DNA of 64,000 nucleotides. It comes from Pseudomonas sp. K2I15. Lineage in GTDB: Bacteria > Pseudomonadota > Gammaproteobacteria > Pseudomonadales > Pseudomonadaceae. The notes under the pieces were generated by a model that worked only from the letters and a program-made list of their open reading frames with translations, was not told the DNA's origin and ran no database searches. Positions 50,657 through 60,064 of this stretch are shown here, one piece after another. The translations under genes were made by a program, and so were the position numbers. Position 1 is the stretch's first letter; every line of letters begins with the position of its first letter. The stretch spans positions 1 to 64,000 of the forward strand of contig NZ_NIXO01000016.1 of the NCBI RefSeq assembly GCF_002204795.1, in the 5' to 3' direction.

Positions 50657-50733
50657 GCATCCGTAGCTCAGCTGGATAGAGTACTGCCCTCCGAAGGCAG
50701 GGGTCGTGGGTTCGAATCCCGCCGGGTGCACCA
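50657..50733 (+). tRNA. tRNA-Arg (anticodon CCG)
   Basis: A 77-base cloverleaf. The acceptor stem is GCATCCG with CGGGTGC (one G-T pair), the anticodon arm is CTGCC-CTCCGAA-GGCAG with anticodon CCG, which reads CGG, and the T arm contains GGTTCGAATCC. CCA is encoded. A terminator follows at once. The tRNA marks the left edge of an island of defence genes; tRNA genes are common integration sites. Confidence 0.97.
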
Positions 50734-50743
50734 GATACAGATG

Positions 50744-50778
50744 AAAAAGCCCCAGGTCGAAAGGCCTGGGGCTTTTTT
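50744..50778 (+). terminator. Intrinsic terminator of tRNA-Arg
   Basis: AAAAAGCCCCAGG (50744-50756) pairs with CCTGGGGCTTTTT (50765-50777), ending in a run of six T. It begins 11 bases past the tRNA CCA end. Confidence 0.95.
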
Positions 50779-50826
50779 GTGGATAGAAATATTGCAATTG
50801 TGACTCGCCGGCTGATCGCCTATACC

Positions 50827-52032
50827 ATGCGCGGGCTAGTATTTTCTGACGATCAATACGCAGGCGATGAAAAGCGCGCCGCTCGACGACCGCCGGTGAA
50901 GGTCGAAGGAATTGCCATAAGCATCGAATCGATTACGATCAATGGATTTAAAAGTGTCACGAACCTGACACTGGAACGCTTATCGCCATTCACTGCACTG
51001 GCCGGCTCGAACGGCGCAGGGAAAAGCAATATTACCGATGCTCTCGCTTTCTTTGGCGCCATCGTAAAACGAGGCGCCTCTACTGCGATTCGCGACTTTG
51101 GTGGCTTTCAACAAATCCACTGTTTCAAACATCGCAAACAAAAAAGAACAACCATCTCTTTCGAGATAAAAATTCAGATTGAACATGAAAATTTTGAGTA
51201 CGCCCTCAAAATAGTTGAAATTGATAAAGCGCCTCAGGTGGTCGAAAACCTGAAAATCAACGGCACTCAATACATTGATCGCAAGCAGAATGGCGAAACA
51301 AAAGTAACGTTGACGGATTACTCGCCACTCCAGTCCTTCTTGGAATACCCCCAAGACATGACCGCGCTTATGTTATTAAGCAATTCTGCGCTGTATAAGT
51401 TTCTCACCAATATTCGCGTTTATCGCATTGATCCAATTGCCGCCAAAGAACCGGACAACTCGACTGCAGATGCAACAATGCTGGATAGCCATGGCAGAAA
51501 CGTTGCAACCATGCTGTCTATTCTGGAGAAGGATAAGCACTTCCGCACTCAGGTTCTGGAGTGGATAGAGCTGATTGTTCCCGGCATGGAAAATGTCTCA
51601 ACTGAAAAACAACGATTGGATAGCACCACTGTCATCACCTTCAAGGAAGAAGGGACAAGAACGCATTTCCCCGCGCGCTTAATTTCGGATGGCACTATTT
51701 ACGCTTTATGCATAATGACTGCCGTGTTAAGTCGGACCTCGCAAGCCGGTTTAACTATTATCGAAGAGCCTGAACGGGGCATCCACCCAAAAGCGATTGG
51801 CGAGTTGGTTGCGCTCATGCGTGACAACGCCACCGTAGACCATCCGGTCTTTATTACTACCCACAGTGAATCAGTCGTGCGCAACCTTAACCCTGAAGAG
51901 CTCTGGCTAGTCAATAAGCTAGAAGGCCGGACGAACGTCAAGTGTGCTGCCGAATCAAGAGTCGATAAAAAACAAATCCCTCTTGATACCGCCTGGCTGA
52001 CCAATCTGTTTGACGGAGGTCTACCATGGTGA
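50827..52032 (+). CDS. OLD-like AAA ATPase of a putative two-gene defence system
   Basis: A 401-residue ATPase if it starts at ATG 50827. The family-like part begins at about residue 30 with [20 protein letters not shown], and GTG 50896 could be the true start. Walker A is [20 protein letters not shown], a signature-like [20 protein letters not shown] lies near residue 300, Walker B is [20 protein letters not shown], and the H-loop is [19 protein letters not shown]. The gene is clearly more AT-rich than its neighbours, so it was probably acquired. Its stop lies seven bases inside a second frame with TOPRIM-like features. ATPase-plus-TOPRIM pairs such as PARIS and related systems sense phage proteins, but I cannot assign this pair to a named type. 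Confidence 0.85.
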
Positions 52033-52588
52033 GGGTAGGTTTTATTGTAGAAGGCGACTGCGAACGGATCGTAGTTGAATCTTCGAAGTTTAAAAATTAT
52101 TGGGTGATGCGGGGTACGAACTCGTCACACCGGTAATCGACGCAAAAGGCGGAGGTAACCTTCTACCCCAAAATATCGAGGCGTTCACTCAGGTCCTTGA
52201 AACACGGGGCGTAGAAAAAATCTATGTGCTTACCGACTTGGAGGACGATGACTCAGTTGATGTCGTCCGTAACCGTATACAGAACCGAAAACTGGAAACT
52301 GTCTTTGTAGCCGTGAAGGCTCTTGAAGCATGGGTCCTTGCAGACACTCAAGCAATGAGTCAATGGCTGAAGCAAGGGTACAACGAACCCCAACCAGAAA
52401 TGACGACCGACAAGCCTTATGATCGTCTCAAAGAAATCGCCAGAGAATTGGGCACCTCGGGGCCTGGTAACAAGCCAGCCTTTGCTAAAAAAATGATCAA
52501 GCATTTTGGATTCAGTGTGGCGCGTGCAGCCGAACACCCAGCATGCCCAAGCGCTCGCGAGCTGGTTGAATACTTCCAGGCACCCTGA
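52026..52588 (+). pseudogene. TOPRIM-like (DUF4276-type) partner, frameshifted
   Basis: The gene starts at ATG 52026, overlapping the ATPase end by seven bases, with [19 protein letters not shown]. This frame stops at 52136. From about 52097 the protein continues in another frame (LGDAGYELVTPVIDAKGGGN) to TGA 52588. The frames meet at five A (52092-52096); one extra A would restore one frame of about 187 residues. The VEG-x-x-E motif and VLTDLEDDDSVD match the acidic residues of TOPRIM folds. It is either a natural loss of function, an assembly error in the A run, or a slippage site. No good ribosomal slippery heptamer is present. The function would be the effector of the ATPase beside it. 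Confidence 0.75.
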
Positions 52589-52626
52589 TACCAGTGCACA
52601 CGTAACGTTGGTAAACCGAACTGAGT

Positions 52627-53832
52627 TCAGTTGTTCGGTTCGAACTCTCCGGGAATTCCGGAGAGTTGCCTCAACGCTGCCATCAAACACCGATACCCCA
52701 CATGTTCCTGCTCCAACCTCACCCCGCCCCCCAGCCGATTGTCCCGCAGCTCATTAAACACCGAGCGCTCCTCAGACGTGAGGTAAGGCAAGTCATGGAC
52801 GACCTGACGATCCTCCTGCCCCCAGAATTGTGCGTGGGCATCAAGGGTGCTGCGATCCATCAACAATGACTCGACATGCCCAAACCGGCGGCGCAACTGG
52901 TCAAGAATCGCAAACCCATGTGTATCAATATCGCCCCAGTAGTAAATCATACAACTCGATAGCCAACTCGCTTGCCCTAGAGCTTCCCAGCCATAGCCCT
53001 TACCGAACACCACAATGGAGCCCGGCACGCGTGGGAAGGCTAGAAAGTTGGTTTCGTTCTCGGTCACAAAGATCCGCCTGACGGCAATATTCAACTGAGC
53101 AAAACTGGCCGAATCAAGAGTGACATCAGGCAAGGTGGGGCCAGGCATCACGGCCAAGCGCTCATCCAGCACGCGAAAGCGGATCCCGGTGGGCTTATCA
53201 AGAAAACCATAACGGACAGAGAACTGTGTGACGCCTTTGTACTGCCGGGCGATAGCCTGCTCGGGCAGCACTTGGTCGAACAGCTCACTTAGTACTGCCT
53301 TGTGCCCTTCGATGAATTTGCTGCGAATGCCAGGTATGTCCACCTGTCGAAGGTAGATACCTGGCCGCGGATGTTCCGCCATCCAAGTCACCACATCCAG
53401 AAGCCCTGCCCAATCCCGCTCCAGTGCGATGGCCTGCAATGGCTGGCCCCTCAGCCAGTCGACAAGCAAGGGTTGACGCTGTCGGGTCAGTTCAAGCAGA
53501 ACCTTGAAGTGCTGCGCCTCTCCCTCTTTGCCAATCAACGCAATAGCCTCTTCCAGCGAATCCACCCAGATGGACGTGGGCAAGCGTTGCGGCCCGACAA
53601 CCCTATGATTGACCTCCCGCCATTGGATCCGAATGCCGTCGACAGCACTGAGCTGCGCCACCCAGGTCCTGACCCTATCGAAGTTCTCACTCAGTTGCAC
53701 AGTATCCGGCCCTTTCAATATCAAGCGCCGTGGCTCCCAGGCCTCCTCGGTCACCAGAGGGCGCAGCAGATCGCCTCGTTGCCAGAGCCGCAATAATTGT
53801 TGTGTGAGATCCGCCTGCGAGGTCCATTTCAT
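52627..53832 (-). CDS. jetD: Wadjet protein JetD (DUF3322/DUF2220, TOPRIM nuclease)
   Basis: The nuclease subunit of a type I Wadjet system, 401 residues. In Wadjet, JetD resembles topoisomerase VI subunit A and cuts circular DNA after it is extruded by the SMC-like complex. Here an N-terminal helical arm ([20 protein letters not shown]) leads to a C-terminal TOPRIM domain: the Glu is in [18 protein letters not shown] near residue 257 and the DxD in [19 protein letters not shown] near 299. These residues are intact. Its ATG overlaps the jetC stop by four bases. It is the last gene of the operon and is convergent with the TOPRIM-like gene at 52.6 kb. Confidence 0.92.
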
Positions 53833-56800
53833 GACGATAAATCAGGTCGGTTCAACTGATATTCCTCAATGGAAAGATTGCGCAACCGGGACGCCTTGCC
53901 ACCGTCGTTCTGCACAAAGCCCACACTGGAAACAAAAGGTTCGATGATGTGGATTTTCTGCAAAGGGGTGACGATCAGCAGCTGCAGGTTGAGCTGCTCG
54001 AACAGCCGCAAACCATACTCCGCTGAATCATCGGAGCCGCGTCCAAACGCTTCATCGATCAACACGAACCGAAACGATCGCGAACGCACCGCGCCCCACT
54101 CCAAACCAAACTGATAGGCCAAGCTCGCCGCCAAAATGGTGTAGGCCAGTTTTTCTTTTTGCCCGCCGGACTTGCCACCGGAATCCGAGTAATGCTCGTG
54201 CTCGCGATCGTCCTCGCGCCAGCGCTCGCTGGCGGCAAACAGGAACCAGTTGCGCACATCGGTGACTTTGCTGGTCCATCGCCGGTCTTGCTCGGACAAT
54301 CCTTCCCGCCCACGAAAACGGTCAACGATGGTTTTGACCTGCAGAAACTTGTTTTCCGAATACTGGGCATCCTCGGATCCCGTCAATGCGCCCTCGGTAC
54401 AGGCACGCAATTGCATCTGGAAATCTCGAATATCCGCATCCGGGCTCAGCTGGGACTCCAGCACGATGTAGCGACCTGGGTTGTAGTCGATCTGCCCCAG
54501 GGATTCATTGATACGGCCAATCCGCTCCTTGATGGTTTCGCGCTCCCGAGCCAATTGCCCGTTGAAGTTCGCGATCTCATTGATCGTGTTGACGTTGAGC
54601 AACTCCTTGAAGCGTTGTTCAAAACGCGGCAGATCGTCACGATTTAGTTGGTCCAACAGGTTGCGGTACTCATCGACGGCATTGAGATCGGCATCGAATT
54701 CGCTGGTCTCCAGCTTGTAGGCGTCCTTGAATGCCACCATCGCCCGAATGATCTTGTCCCGCAGCCGTTCCAACACCTTGGCCTCTGCGTCCATTTTTCC
54801 TTGCAGGCCTTCGCGCACTTCTCGCTCGGCGTTATCGCAGGACTCAACAGTAAGCAGCCGCTCGCCCAGAATTTGGGTGCGCAGTGTCTCCAATTGACCC
54901 CGGACCAACTCGTCAATATCTATTAACAAGCTGCTGGCTTCTGTGCGCAGCATAGTTGCGGCTTCATGTTTCGCCGCAACATTACCCAACTCCGTGTCCA
55001 GCCTAGACAGCTCATCCTCTGTCACTTTGAGGGCGTCTTGCACCGTTTGAAGTTGCTTCGCCAGTTGCAGCAAGGTGTCACTGGCGGCCTCCAGTTGTGC
55101 TTTTTCATCCTGTAATCGTGCCACGAGGGTCGCGCATTCGGCCCAATCGATCTCTCGGTATTCGGTAAATTCATTGAGCGCGGCCAGCGACTCCAGTTGC
55201 TGGCGCAAATAAGTACGCTGCTTTTCGGCACTCGCAATGCTTGATCCAATATCAGCCAGTTGCACTTCAAGACAGTCTTTTACCGCCTCAAGCGCAGCGA
55301 TTTTTTCAGCGTTGCTCCAGCCCAGAACATAACGGCCGCGGTCGTCCAGGCGATGCCGGTCATCCTTCTCATGGCGCTCGCCAGCGCCTTTGACCTGGCC
55401 CGACAGGGACAAGGCACGTACCTCTCGACGAAACTGTTCCGGCGTCTCGCAGCAGGCGTAGTTAAAACGATAAGCCAGCTCGCGAACCAACCAAGGATAT
55501 AACGTTGAATCGGGTTTGACGCTGAGTTTTGCCACCAGCGATTGCGGGTGCAAATCCGGGGTCTCAACTTGACGGGCCGAACGCACCCGAAAATACACCA
55601 GGCGCCCCGCCAGGTGAGTTCGATCAACCCAGGCAGCAACCTGAGCGTAGTTTTCGTCCGGCACAAGCAGCGCCAGGCCGAAGTTGTGCAGCACCCGTTC
55701 AATAGCGCCTTCCCAAGGGCGATGTTCCTCACGTACTTGAAGCAGCTCACCGACAAACGGCATGAATTCTTCACCCAGCCCTGTCGCCAGGCACAGCGCA
55801 GCCCGCAACTTGATCTGCGCATCTGGAATATTGCTGCGGCGTGCCCTAAGGCTGGAGATTTCCCCAGAAAGTGCATCATGCTCACGCCGCCCCACACGCA
55901 ACGAAACGCCCCATTCAGTAACCTGGTTTTGCAAGTCTGCTTCCTGGGTACCGGACTGGTCGCGGCGGGCATGCAATAGTTGTCCTAGCCGGATAAATCC
56001 CGCTTCATCATCAACGGGCGACTCGCCAATAGCCGCAAGAAGCTGTACATGACGTTGCGCCCGGTGCTGACGACGCTCCCGCTCAATGTTCTGTTTGCGA
56101 ATTTCGTTCGCCAATTGCTCCAGACGATCACCGCCCTGCTCGGCCACCGCCCGCCTGAGGGAGTCTACGTCCAGCCTCTGGCGATCACGTTGCTCGACCT
56201 GATGCTCCTTTTGAGAAGACAAGCGCTGTTGATCATTGGCCAGTAGCTGCAAACGTCGGTCCAGCAACCCGATTTTAAGCTCCGAGAACCATGGTTTAAG
56301 TGCTTCACGGCAATCGCGCAACCCGTCCTGTTCACCACGCAGGCCTTGGTGCTTGTCGCAGTCAGCCACTAGCGGCTCCAGCAGCAGGCGCTGTTGCTTG
56401 GCCTTGAGCACCGCCTCATGAGCTCGGTTCAAATCATCGAAATGTGCAATCAACGCCGCGATACGAGTAGCGGCATCGAACGGTTCAAGCATATGGCTAC
56501 GAACAAATTCGGTCAGGTTACCCACAGACTTCATCGAAACCGTTTGATGAAACAGCTCCAGCGCCTGTTCGTTATCAATCCCCAGGCGCCGCCGAAACCA
56601 GGCACCGTACTTGGAAAAACTATCCTGGATATCCGCACCGTCGTTACGCAGTCGCTTTCGCAGTTGCGCAATGTCGGTGCCGAAGTCAGCAAAGTCCGTG
56701 GTAATACAAAGCTCACGCTCGGCGCCCACATAAAAACGCTCTGGCTGCCCCTGCCCGTCCTTCATCCAGAATACCTGGGCCAAGGTCACTGTCTGGTCAT

Positions 56801-57191
56801 AGCCTGCGTTGTGAAAGACCCCCAGAATTACCGAATAGCTATTGTGATCGCGCAGCGCGACCGGCTTGGCAGCTCCGGTGACCTCGCTGCGTTCGGACTT
56901 GAAATGCCCCAACACATAGGAGCGCAGGCTTCGCTCCTTATTTTCAGCTCCGGCGGCTTTGTTATAGGCAATCCGCTGGGTGGGCACCAGCAACGTGGTA
57001 ATTGCATCCACCAAGGTCGATTTGCCGGACCCAATATCCCCCGTCAGCAGGCTATTTTTCCCATCGGGCAACAGCGTCCAGACCCGCTGATCGAAGGTCC
57101 CCCAGTTGAATACCTCAAGGCGCTTGAGGCGAAAACCTGACAGGCTGTCATCGCCGATGAAATCCAATTCCGCAAGCAACGACTCACTCAT
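53829..57191 (-). CDS. jetC: Wadjet protein JetC (SMC/MukB-like ATPase)
   Basis: The motor subunit, 1120 residues, that extrudes DNA loops. The head is split as in SMC proteins: Walker [19 protein letters not shown] at 51-68, then a very long coiled-coil region (residues about 280-930, rich in Glu, Gln and Leu, with a hinge-like centre near 470-640), then the signature [20 protein letters not shown] near residue 1005 and Walker [21 protein letters not shown] near 1043. All catalytic residues are present. Junctions with jetB and jetD are both four-base overlaps, which favours a fixed ratio of subunits. Confidence 0.95.
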
Positions 57192-57853
57192 TGTTCAATC
57201 TCCTTCCCGCCATCAGGACCTGACTCGCTTTCTCCCGAAAGACGCATCTGGTATTCCCCAAGCCGTTTATCGAAGTCAGACAACCATTGCGCATCCACAA
57301 ACGCCTTGAGGATGCGCCGCACTTCATAACTCACAGGGCCGGCGGCGCTCTTGAGACGGCGTAAAAAGCCCAGTTCAACAATCTTGGTGAGGTGTGTATC
57401 AATCTGATCAACCAGTCGGGCTTCGTTACTGCTGTCGGGCAAAAACACGCGAATCAATTCGACGATTTCATCACGGGTCAGCACCAGCCGCGTTTCGCCT
57501 CCCGTGGCATCGAACTCCGCCAGTTTTTTGCGCAGCAACGCCAAGAGCAGGCTGACCGGAAATGACAGTGGCCGACGAGCAATAAGCCGTGGCATACGAA
57601 CCTGCGGTTCATCCTCGCCTGACTCATCACGACTGCGCAGGAAAGCGTAGCCCTCGGCCTCGTCGAGCATCAACTCCAGACCCAGCACTGTCACGTAACC
57701 GCGGACCTGAGTCTGCCAGTTGAGTAACGTCCCCCATAGGCGCTCATCACCTTCGCGATAAATCACCCCCTTAAGCAGCAAAATCAGCAGCGTCGACAAG
57801 TCTGCTGCGGTAACGTCCATAACCATGTCCGGCGCATGTTGTTCTTCGTTCAT
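57188..57853 (-). CDS. jetB: Wadjet protein JetB (DUF4194, kleisin-associated)
   Basis: The MukE-like subunit of the complex, 221 residues, built of winged helices. Family segments include [20 protein letters not shown] near the start, [20 protein letters not shown] and [20 protein letters not shown]. It starts at ATG 57853 overlapping the jetA stop (ATGA); the longer frame upstream lies inside jetA in another phase and is not coding. It ends in the same kind of overlap with jetC. Confidence 0.93.
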
Positions 57854-59304
57854 CCTTGCCTCACAAAAATAACGCGCGCCAGCCGTGCCTGCTTCTGCAC
57901 GGGATGGCCGTCGCTGGACGTAGCCGTCCACACAATCGGCTCGTTTTGGCTGTCATCGACGACGGTGGTAAATGTTTCACTGCCCAAGTGAAGATAAGCC
58001 ACCAACTCAGCCAACCCCTGCTGCAACGGTTGCAACCGGGTCAACTCGCACAATGTGATTTGCGAGCGGGCCTGCAGTGCCTGGTGGATATGAGCTGCGA
58101 GCCGGGCAAGGTCAACCATCCGCTCGTTGTACAAGGCACTCACGTCGAGATCATCGTCGCCGACTTGCACGCTCATGCCGGCGAAGTCGGACTTCAGGGT
58201 CAACGTGTGCAGGGGCCGCTCCATGGGCAACTCGATACGGGCTGCAACATCAGCCATGTCCATGAAATTGCCCGCGGGTGGGTGCTCACGAGCTCCCAGA
58301 GCCTTGGCCTCCACCCCTCGCAGAATGTCCATGATCCGTCGGTTTTCGAGCCATACCCGATCATCCAGAAAACGCCGCAATTGCTGGGAAAGTTGCGCGA
58401 CCATGCGCTGGGTATGTTCACCCGCCTCAAGCCAGTCGTAATGCACACGACGAGTGCGAATATCCGGTTTCAACTCCATCACCGGGGCCAGGGCCAGCAC
58501 ATGATCAAGCATCCGTGTCAGCTCTTCCTGACGGCTGGTCGACATCAAGAACCCCCAGAATGCCCTGAAACTGCGTCCCTGATCGGAGTCGGAAATGGCA
58601 TCGCGCTCACCCATGATTTGTTCCAGCAGCGCGCCCTTGGCGCCCTCCCATAAGGCGATTCGCTCACGCACACGCCGATCCAGCAGGCGAAAGTTATGTT
58701 CAACCTCTCGAAAGTCGGCGAGTAACTCCCGCGACAACTGAGCAAATTGCTGGAAGCGATCTTTCAGGGCCGTATCGTCCAGCAGAGGTACATCGCCACC
58801 CAGAATCTGTGCGATTTCCGCGTCCAGCTCATCCCGGCGCTTGCGCAACTCGGCCACACGCTTGGCCGGATCCGTCTCACTGCCCTCGCTCATCTGCTTA
58901 AGCAACTCGAATAACGTCAGCAACCTGGACTCGGTACCGACGAACCCCCGCTCGACGAGGGTGGCTAACCAGGCAATAGCTTTCTCGGTAGACGGCGTCA
59001 GGTCGAACTGCGGCTCATCGTCGTCCTGACGGTAGAACTTGCGCAGCCAGCCCTTTTCCGGGCTGGCCCACTCATTGAGGTAGTGCAACGCCGGCCTCGG
59101 AAAAGCATCGTCGTCCAGCCGCCTGCGCAAGGCGAACAACTCGTCTTCCAGCGCCTCTGCAAGGTCAGCGGCAGCAATGATTCGCACGTTGGGTGCAACG
59201 AACACGCGGTGCAAGAAACTTGCAACCAGCGGGCCGTGGTCCGAGCGCAATAGACGCCATGCAGGATGATGCGTTCGCAGGCTTTCAAGGGTGGCGTAAT
59301 CCAT
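57850..59304 (-). CDS. jetA: Wadjet protein JetA (DUF3375, kleisin-like)
   Basis: First gene of the Wadjet operon, 484 residues. JetA is the MukF-like kleisin that bridges the ATPase heads. The N-terminus MDYATLESLRTHHPAWRLLR is typical of DUF3375, followed by ADLAEALEDELFALRRRLDD. A helical middle (residues about 160-260) and the C-terminal RITLCELTRLQPLQQG-like segment (QITLCELTRLQPLQQGLAEL) follow. ATG 59304 and the adjacent GTG 59307 are both possible starts; neither has a strong ribosome site. The operon promoter should lie in 59305-59461. Confidence 0.93.
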   Translation of the reverse strand: MDYATLESLRTHHPAWRLLRSDHGPLVASFLHRVFVAPNVRIIAAADLAEALEDELFALRRRLDDDAFPRPALHYLNEWASPEKGWLRKFYRQDDDEPQFDLTPSTEKAIAWLATLVERGFVGTESRLLTLFELLKQMSEGSETDPAKRVAELRKRRDELDAEIAQILGGDVPLLDDTALKDRFQQFAQLSRELLADFREVEHNFRLLDRRVRERIALWEGAKGALLEQIMGERDAISDSDQGRSFRAFWGFLMSTSRQEELTRMLDHVLALAPVMELKPDIRTRRVHYDWLEAGEHTQRMVAQLSQQLRRFLDDRVWLENRRIMDILRGVEAKALGAREHPPAGNFMDMADVAARIELPMERPLHTLTLKSDFAGMSVQVGDDDLDVSALYNERMVDLARLAAHIHQALQARSQITLCELTRLQPLQQGLAELVAYLHLGSETFTTVVDDSQNEPIVWTATSSDGHPVQKQARLARVIFVRQG

Positions 59305-59381
59305 CACGTACCGATTGCAGAGTTAACGAACTCAAAACAATGGCGCCAAGTCCGGGGATTTTCCACTCCTAAATTGACGCA

Positions 59382-59397
59382 CTAGCCGAACGGCTAG
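59382..59397. promoter_or_regulatory. Perfect palindrome upstream of the Wadjet operon
   Basis: CTAGCCG-AA-CGGCTAG is a seven-base exact inverted repeat, 78 bases before jetA. It is in the 157-base space between jetA and the anti-sigma gene. It may be an operator for the operon or a scar of island insertion. The stretch around it reads like non-coding DNA in all frames. Confidence 0.45.
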
Positions 59398-59461
59398 GTT
59401 GTTGCAAAAAGCGTCCGTCAAAAGCCCCAAATCAAGACTCGATGTTTTTGAACAGGACGTT

Positions 59462-60064
59462 TCAGTGATGCGACTGCAACACCTCCAACCGCGCCGGCAA
59501 GTCTTCCTTGGGAAAGCGCTTGTGCAACTCCAGCAGCTTCTCATCCGCCGCCTTCGCCTCTCCCGCCTGCCGCAACCGCAGGATTTCCTGTAACCCTTGC
59601 TCCAACGGCGGCAGCACAACAGCCGCGCGCTTGCTCATCTTCGCCACCGGCTCATCCGCCAGCGAACCCGCAACTTCTGCCTGCACCTGCGGTACGCTAT
59701 CGGCCTGCGGCGCCATGGAAAACCTTGCCATCGGCGCCGCTGCCGGGGCCGGACGGGCCAGTTCCTGCGGGGCGGCAGCGTAAGTGCCTGTGGATAACTC
59801 CGGCTGCGGCACAGGCGAGCGCACCACCAAGCCAATCATCAGGGCCACACCCGCCACGGTGGCAAATGCCATCTGCCAGCGCGGCCGTTGGCATGCCTGC
59901 AACCAGCGCTGCCACAGGCTGGGCTGGCGCACCGGCGCTTCACGGTGGGCGGTGGCCAGGATGAAGGCGTCCAGGGAAGCAGGCGGCTCACCGCTGGCGT
60001 GTTGACGGAAATGCTCGATCAGCAGGTCGTCGTTTGAATCCTGGGTATGTCGGGAATCAGTCAT
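59462..60064 (-). CDS. Putative anti-sigma factor (membrane protein)
   Basis: A 200-residue protein with one transmembrane helix near residues 66-85 (WQMAFATVAGVALMIGLVVR). The cytoplasmic part is short and has no zinc-binding His-Cys-Cys motif. The periplasmic part is Ala/Pro-rich and ends in a helical repeat-like segment (EILRLRQAGEAKAADEKLLE). It begins inside the sigma factor gene by a four-base overlap, the typical arrangement of sigma and anti-sigma pairs. That arrangement is the main reason for the call. Confidence 0.7.
   Translation of the reverse strand: MTDSRHTQDSNDDLLIEHFRQHASGEPPASLDAFILATAHREAPVRQPSLWQRWLQACQRPRWQMAFATVAGVALMIGLVVRSPVPQPELSTGTYAAAPQELARPAPAAAPMARFSMAPQADSVPQVQAEVAGSLADEPVAKMSKRAAVVLPPLEQGLQEILRLRQAGEAKAADEKLLELHKRFPKEDLPARLEVLQSHH

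Follow-up and report, generated by a model that had tools for sequence, protein, structure and literature searches.

The question raised by this locus was whether a run of four genes in Pseudomonas sp. K2I15 is a complete Wadjet operon and, if so, whether it would make the strain a poor host for plasmids. The window (the whole stretch of DNA analyzed, 64,000 nucleotides) had been described in an earlier note as carrying an intact jetA-jetB-jetC-jetD operon of type I on its minus strand. The four genes are as follows.

57850-59304, minus strand: jetA, 484 amino acids counted from ATG; DUF3375, kleisin-like subunit
57188-57853, minus strand: jetB, 221 amino acids counted from ATG; DUF4194, KITE-like subunit with a short N-terminal tail
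53829-57191, minus strand: jetC, 1120 amino acids; SMC/MukB-like ATPase
52627-53832, minus strand: jetD, 401 amino acids; DUF3322 plus TOPRIM (JetD_C) nuclease

The open frames reproduced exactly the coordinates given in that note, 52627-59304, and the length of 1120 residues that it gave for the SMC/MukB-like ATPase was borne out by the frame. Each of the three junctions is a 4-base overlap (53829-53832, 57188-57191, and 57850-57853) reading ATGA on the coding strand, also as described.

Profile searches of the kind suggested in the note were performed with Pfam and PADLOC. The best PADLOC models for all four proteins were those of type I Wadjet, each matching over nearly the full length: JetA1 for JetA (1.3e-215), JetB1 for JetB (4.2e-94), JetC1 for JetC (E=0, 1600 bits), and JetD1 for JetD (1.5e-145). 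On JetD, the type II and III JetD models reached 1.4e-4 at best. All of the expected Pfam families matched, with DUF3375 found in JetA (2.1e-147), DUF4194 in JetB (1.3e-46), and both DUF3322 (8.1e-53) and JetD_C (9.2e-53) in JetD. JetB also matched MksE (1.5e-16), and JetC matched AAA_29 and SbcC_Walker_B, the two ends of an SMC ATPase. NCBIfam gave no match for JetA, JetB, or JetD, and its single match to JetC fell far under the cut-off. Chance matching is excluded because of the profile E-values. At the level of sequence, these results confirmed the assignment of the four genes as type I Wadjet jetABCD, in the type I order given by both the open frames and the PADLOC models. The operon is an ordinary, intact member of a known system and leaves the general view of Wadjet unchanged.

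The preferred reading, which we hold to be very probably correct, is that an intact type I Wadjet arrived as accessory DNA, sits in a variable pocket of the chromosome, and acts as an SMC motor plus nuclease. Identity, gene order, motifs, and purifying selection are read from the sequences; complex formation, extrusion, cutting, and plasmid loss would follow by analogy with characterized systems, whose mechanism is summarized in the passages available of PMC10586767. By that analogy, JetA, JetB, and JetC would assemble into a MukBEF-like SMC motor made of two side-by-side units, and this motor would load on DNA and extrude it. When a small circle had been fully extruded, the two motor units would meet and the JetD TOPRIM nuclease would be released. 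JetD would then cut the circle, and the long chromosome and linear DNA would escape.

Catalytic motifs and the JetB tail

The earlier note had also called the Walker A, signature, and Walker B motifs of JetC and the Glu and DxD of JetD intact, and all of them were located in the frames and alignments. For comparison, named bacterial genomes were scanned with three aligned JetC proteins, and the best 80 of 530 confirmed public loci were used. In JetC of the window, Walker A lies at residues 51-59, the signature begins at 1008, and Walker B occupies 1042-1049. Lys57, Ser-Gly-Gly 1008-1010, Asp1046, and Glu1047 were kept in 83/83 aligned rows (the public loci plus the window, L062, and L088). The acidic TOPRIM residues of JetD are E258, D301, and D303, the last two supplied by the motif GDID; all three were present in 78 of 80 rows, and the other two rows have gaps at those positions.

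Searches with phmmer against solved chains placed JetC closest to 8dk2 (3.5e-57), followed by 8as8 (1.2e-53). JetA matched solved JetA at 7.8e-22 at best (8dk1), and JetB matched solved JetB chains at 4.2e-05 at best (8dk1). For JetD, the matches were MksG 8b7f (4.9e-20), JetD 7til (1e-14), and the mutant chain JetD(E248A) 8q72 (9.2e-12), and E258 aligned with the residue mutated in that chain. We take 8as8, 8bfn, and 8q72 to be the type I JetABCD of Escherichia coli GF4-3; 8dk1, 8dk2, 8dk3, and 7til to be the Wadjet of P. aeruginosa PA14; and MksG 8b7f to belong to Corynebacterium glutamicum MksBEFG.

The species of MksG is also given in PMC10123090, where, in the passages available, its authors term MksBEFG a type I Wadjet. 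MksG was the solved nuclease closest to JetD of the window, but the host is distant, and the C. glutamicum operon is chromosomal and adjoins adhA (in the same passages) rather than sitting in a variable pocket. The E. coli complex has the same four subunits, with an SMC ATPase and a TOPRIM nuclease carrying the Glu mutated in 8q72, but is distant in sequence (JetD 9.2e-12, JetB 1e-4). Likewise, the PA14 system shares the four subunits and supplies the best solved match to JetC, yet is distant in JetD (1e-14) and JetB (4.2e-05); its JetD is classed as type I in the available text of PMC10586767. Conserved acidic residues hold the metal in JetD and MksG, according to the portions seen of PMC10586767 and PMC10123090.

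The only mechanistic difference from the characterized complex that can be pointed to lies in the JetB tail. The match to E. coli GF4-3 JetB begins at residue 56 of that protein versus residue 26 of the JetB studied here, which makes the present tail shorter by about 30 residues. By eye, JetB of the window has no N-terminal IFDR motif. The pattern [ILV]F[DE]R was found in 0/80 JetB rows of the relatives (the L148 row is without its N-terminus), and the shorter pattern [ILVM]FD was found in one of the 80, as IFD. We know of no definition of type I Wadjet that requires the JetB IFDR motif. In the characterized system, JetD is reported to contact JetABC at sites that include an IFDR motif at the JetB N-terminus; the motif was taken from passages of the review PMC10586767 and not from the JetB sequence itself. 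Because JetB of the window is without IFDR, JetD may dock by a different contact in this JetB branch. JetB encoded on plasmid pBJ86, which belongs to another branch, has LFD in its tail. A likeness of that protein to PA14 JetB was considered and dropped, since its best solved match was only 3.9e-07 despite the LFD. The operon thus offers a clean natural type I Wadjet in Pseudomonas whose JetB tail departs from that reported for the characterized complex.

Distribution and selection

All four genes were present in order in 69 of the 80 public loci (best 80 of 530), three of them with 2.0-4.5 kb between jetA and jetB. Among the 11 loci without the full set, seven lie near a contig end (L117, L118, L148, L159, L168, L170, and perhaps L129, where 5.2 kb precede jetB). 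L172 gave no jetA match and contains runs of N, and L179 has only a jetA fragment and no jetB. L121 and L123 have jetB plus jetC with no jetA match in the approximately 9.4 kb upstream of jetB, which contain no masked bases; in L121, a jetD match was likewise absent.

The nearest operon found was that of Pseudomonas sp. IPO3778 (L100), with JetC 91% identical and the same gene order. Against it, dN/dS was 0.070 for JetA, 0.108 for JetB, 0.072 for JetC, and 0.141 for JetD. The comparison with P. cedrina DSM 17516 (L142), whose JetC is 87% identical and whose gene order is the same, gave 0.046-0.132, and that with L062 gave 0.052-0.078 for JetA to JetC; both sets are rough because dS is high (1.3-2.2), and JetD is saturated in the latter. 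The low dN/dS against L100 says that jetABCD has been under purifying selection and, as far as the sequences can tell, maintained.

Within the genus, JetC matches at E<=0.001 occurred in 14 of 298 genomes, own included, and beside the strain's own protein the only near-full-length relatives were in G040 (84%) and G221 (57%). JetA matches were found in 17 of 398 genomes, own included, a sample that overlaps the 298.

Several relatives depart from a compact operon. The operon with the 57% JetC relative (L088, 9303-19071, in G221) is interrupted by a 356-amino-acid frame between jetA and jetB, which by eye looks DUF1016-like, and by a 500-amino-acid frame between jetB and jetC, which by eye looks like an AlbA-like ATP-binding protein. 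Candidatus Accumulibacter regalis (L115, 4890-8426) has a 1178-amino-acid frame between jetA and jetB, with a SIR2-like start by eye, and the jetA/jetB gaps of L130 and L171 are 2.7 and 2.0 kb. G394 has two distant JetA matches at separate places (G394:C1).

The tRNA-Arg(CCG) pocket, HEC-01, and the jetA leader

The operon fills most of a pocket of approximately 8.7 kb (50733-59462), in which and around which the following features were placed.

beyond tRNA-Arg(CCG): aldehyde-dehydrogenase-like gene, named by eye, no profile
50657-50733, plus strand: tRNA-Arg(CCG), from ARAGORN; one edge of the pocket, positioned by comparison with relatives
50896-52032, plus strand: HEC-01A, ATPase of the AAA_15/AAA_21 kind; PADLOC 1.2e-179, Pfam AAA_21 and AAA_15; start codon uncertain, guessed from the sequence
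52026-52588, plus strand: HEC-01B (DUF4276), frame-broken; PADLOC 6.1e-76 on 52100-52588, model positions 28-186 of 188
59462-60064: anti-sigma-like gene, named by eye, no profile; the other edge of the pocket

Matches to the anti-sigma protein, many of them weak, occurred in 110 of 199 genomes (own included). Pockets were compared in 40 of the 109 other genomes with a match, mostly the best-scoring ones. The tRNA lay within the stretch compared in 35 of the 40; 10 of these pockets were empty (56-68 bases), four held 372-420 bases, and 21 held 1.2-14.8 kb. The pockets of G040 and G048 were bounded later, at approximately 16.4 and 16.5 kb, and three of the 40 were unbounded. The region between tRNA-Arg(CCG) and the anti-sigma-like gene is a variable site.

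The six genes in the window's pocket include no integrase by Pfam. The pockets of the relatives yielded 150 proteins (156 by a simple open-frame rule minus the six Wadjet and HEC-01 proteins of G040), and no Pfam family matched more than four of them at E<=1e-5. The commonest, among the 25 of 114 families listed, were MFS transporters, PixA, and integrases (four each), then LysR, LysE, and SIR2_2 (three each). With PADLOC (E<=1e-20), none of the 25 of 143 families listed matched more than two proteins. Ten larger pocket proteins (nine of 15 in G048 and one of G040) gave three PADLOC matches at E<=1e-20, to methyltransferase, ThsA-like, and helicase models. The pocket proteins are spread over many families, none of them frequent, and these listings leave a dedicated defense island possible but not shown. 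In G030, a terminator like that beside the tRNA is seen by eye at both ends of a 1.2-kb insert (L048, 14594-15794), possibly a mark left by the entry of pieces into the pocket.

Wadjet is known from variable sites near RNA genes in P. aeruginosa, core defense hotspot 2 and the PAPI-2 islands, according to passages of PMC10250203 and PMC12629846. In the window, too, accessory DNA occupies a variable part of the chromosome close to an RNA gene; the setting differs in that those sites are described for P. aeruginosa, and the tRNA-Arg(CCG) site is absent from the passages on them. A literature search, partly on excerpts, found no paper about the tRNA-Arg(CCG)/anti-sigma pocket, and none was found that treats Wadjet and HEC-01 together.

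HEC-01 is a candidate defense pair that lies tail to tail with Wadjet and is separate from it. Its second frame, beginning at 52026, stops at 52134-52136, and the remainder is open in another frame (52100-52588). HEC-01B is unbroken in L100, unlike in the window, and also in L062; the break may be real or an assembly error. HEC-01A was found at E<=1e-60 in six of 398 genomes, own included. It occurred together with JetA in G000 and G040. In the four other HEC-01A genomes (G080, G172, G306, and G385), JetA was not matched at E<=0.001, and in the remaining 15 JetA genomes, HEC-01A was not matched at 1e-60.

In L100 and G040, the pocket is likewise occupied by HEC-01 and Wadjet, in the orientation seen in the window. 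Between the window and L100, the flanking genes are 92-99% identical. Their dS is low (sigma 0.12, dehydrogenase 0.14, anti-sigma 0.29) compared with 0.40-0.65 for the six pocket genes. One reading of this contrast is that HEC-01 plus Wadjet was exchanged as one piece between flanks of common descent; another is slower change at silent sites in the flanking genes. The pairing is not fixed, because Wadjet occurs without a HEC-01 match in two loci: L142, unlike L100, has neither a HEC-01 match nor a pocket marker in the 23-kb stretch compared, and in L101, Wadjet lies approximately 1 kb from tRNA-Arg(CCG), and neither HEC-01 nor the anti-sigma protein was matched.

The region upstream of jetA was examined in an alignment of five upstream regions, which defined one further feature.

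59300-59400, minus strand: conserved jetA leader

Approximately 95 bases before jetA are alike in the window, L100, L062, and L142, and more weakly so in L101; the similarity extends to L142 although that locus is without pocket markers. The leader contains a 16-base palindrome (59382-59397). Its pattern had a single exact match in the strain's genome and one further site with one mismatch; sites with two mismatches look like chance, since a reversed control pattern occurred at 137 places versus 19. A structured RNA leader was rejected: the 101-base leader folded no better than its shuffles (z -0.13), no Rfam family matched at E<=1, and the palindrome arms are incompletely kept in L142 and L101. 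A consensus scan of 59280-59480 found no sigma-70-like promoter. Because support for an RNA fold is absent, we prefer a DNA operator or promoter element as the possible role of the leader.

These features could be combined into a bolder proposal, in which HEC-01 plus Wadjet would be inherited as a unit of two systems that enters and leaves the tRNA-Arg(CCG) pocket whole. The unit would have a dedicated jetA leader and operator, and its JetB branch would recruit JetD to the motor with no IFDR contact. We consider that whole combination unlikely.

Alternative readings and the plasmid question

An operon with a MukB-like JetC and a JetB that also matches MksE might instead serve chromosome organization, as an MksBEF/MukBEF-type condensin, and not defense. 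The earlier note had named a MukBEF-type condensin lacking a nuclease partner as one outcome that would overturn its claim; instead, a complete jetD overlaps jetC. The genome also has a better MksE match elsewhere, on contig C50 (5.0e-41 versus 3.1e-16). Few genomes of the genus have a close JetC relative (of the 14 of 298 noted above, only three, own included, reach at least 57% identity across nearly the whole protein), and the site of the operon is a variable pocket. The condensin reading was rejected on the presence of jetD and of another MksE gene in the genome, and we regard it as highly improbable. A different doubt is that the Wadjet operon, for all its intact appearance, might be silent or inactive here. 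The frame-broken HEC-01B next to it, the broken state of a related Wadjet in G179, and the promoter scan without a match would fit such silence; the four open frames, the intact motifs, and dN/dS of 0.05-0.14 against L100, L142, and L062 where dS could be estimated (high, at 1.3-2.2, for the last two, and saturated for JetD against L062) argue against it and make it unlikely. The G179 remnant (G179:C5:103909-105851) has a jetA with an internal stop and a jetC match over residues 168-381 only.

The main natural target might also be other circular DNA, such as circularized phage or integrative element genomes, and not plasmids. Sharing a pocket with the candidate anti-phage pair HEC-01 would suit this idea, but no evidence of phage restriction was found, and the characterized relatives act on plasmids as reported in the passages available of PMC10586767 and PMC10123090; we give it a small chance. 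The earlier note had suggested that this strain may be a poor plasmid host, which is plausible by analogy with characterized systems. In the available portions of published reports, knockouts of other Wadjet systems disagree. In Clostridium cellulovorans, conjugation rose by about five orders of magnitude when jetABCD was lost (PMC12287153); in Cupriavidus necator H16, losing a type III Wadjet left both electroporation and plasmid stability as they were under the tested conditions (PMC12645576). With three genomes carrying the system in one pocket, and close copies rare in the genus samples searched, it would be practical to study plasmid uptake and JetD recruitment in native strains.

The strain's own genome gave no match to Rep_3 or RPA, both searched with a positive control, which are too few families to call the strain plasmid-free. 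JetD relatives (E<=1e-5) occurred in 12 of 72,556 plasmid records, and 10 of the 12 plasmids exceed 100 kb. Those sizes, taken without a baseline of plasmid sizes, fit the size limit reported in the available part of PMC10586767. One plasmid, pBJ86 of P. aeruginosa (L180, NZ_CP133756.1, 522 kb), carries a four-gene Wadjet operon.
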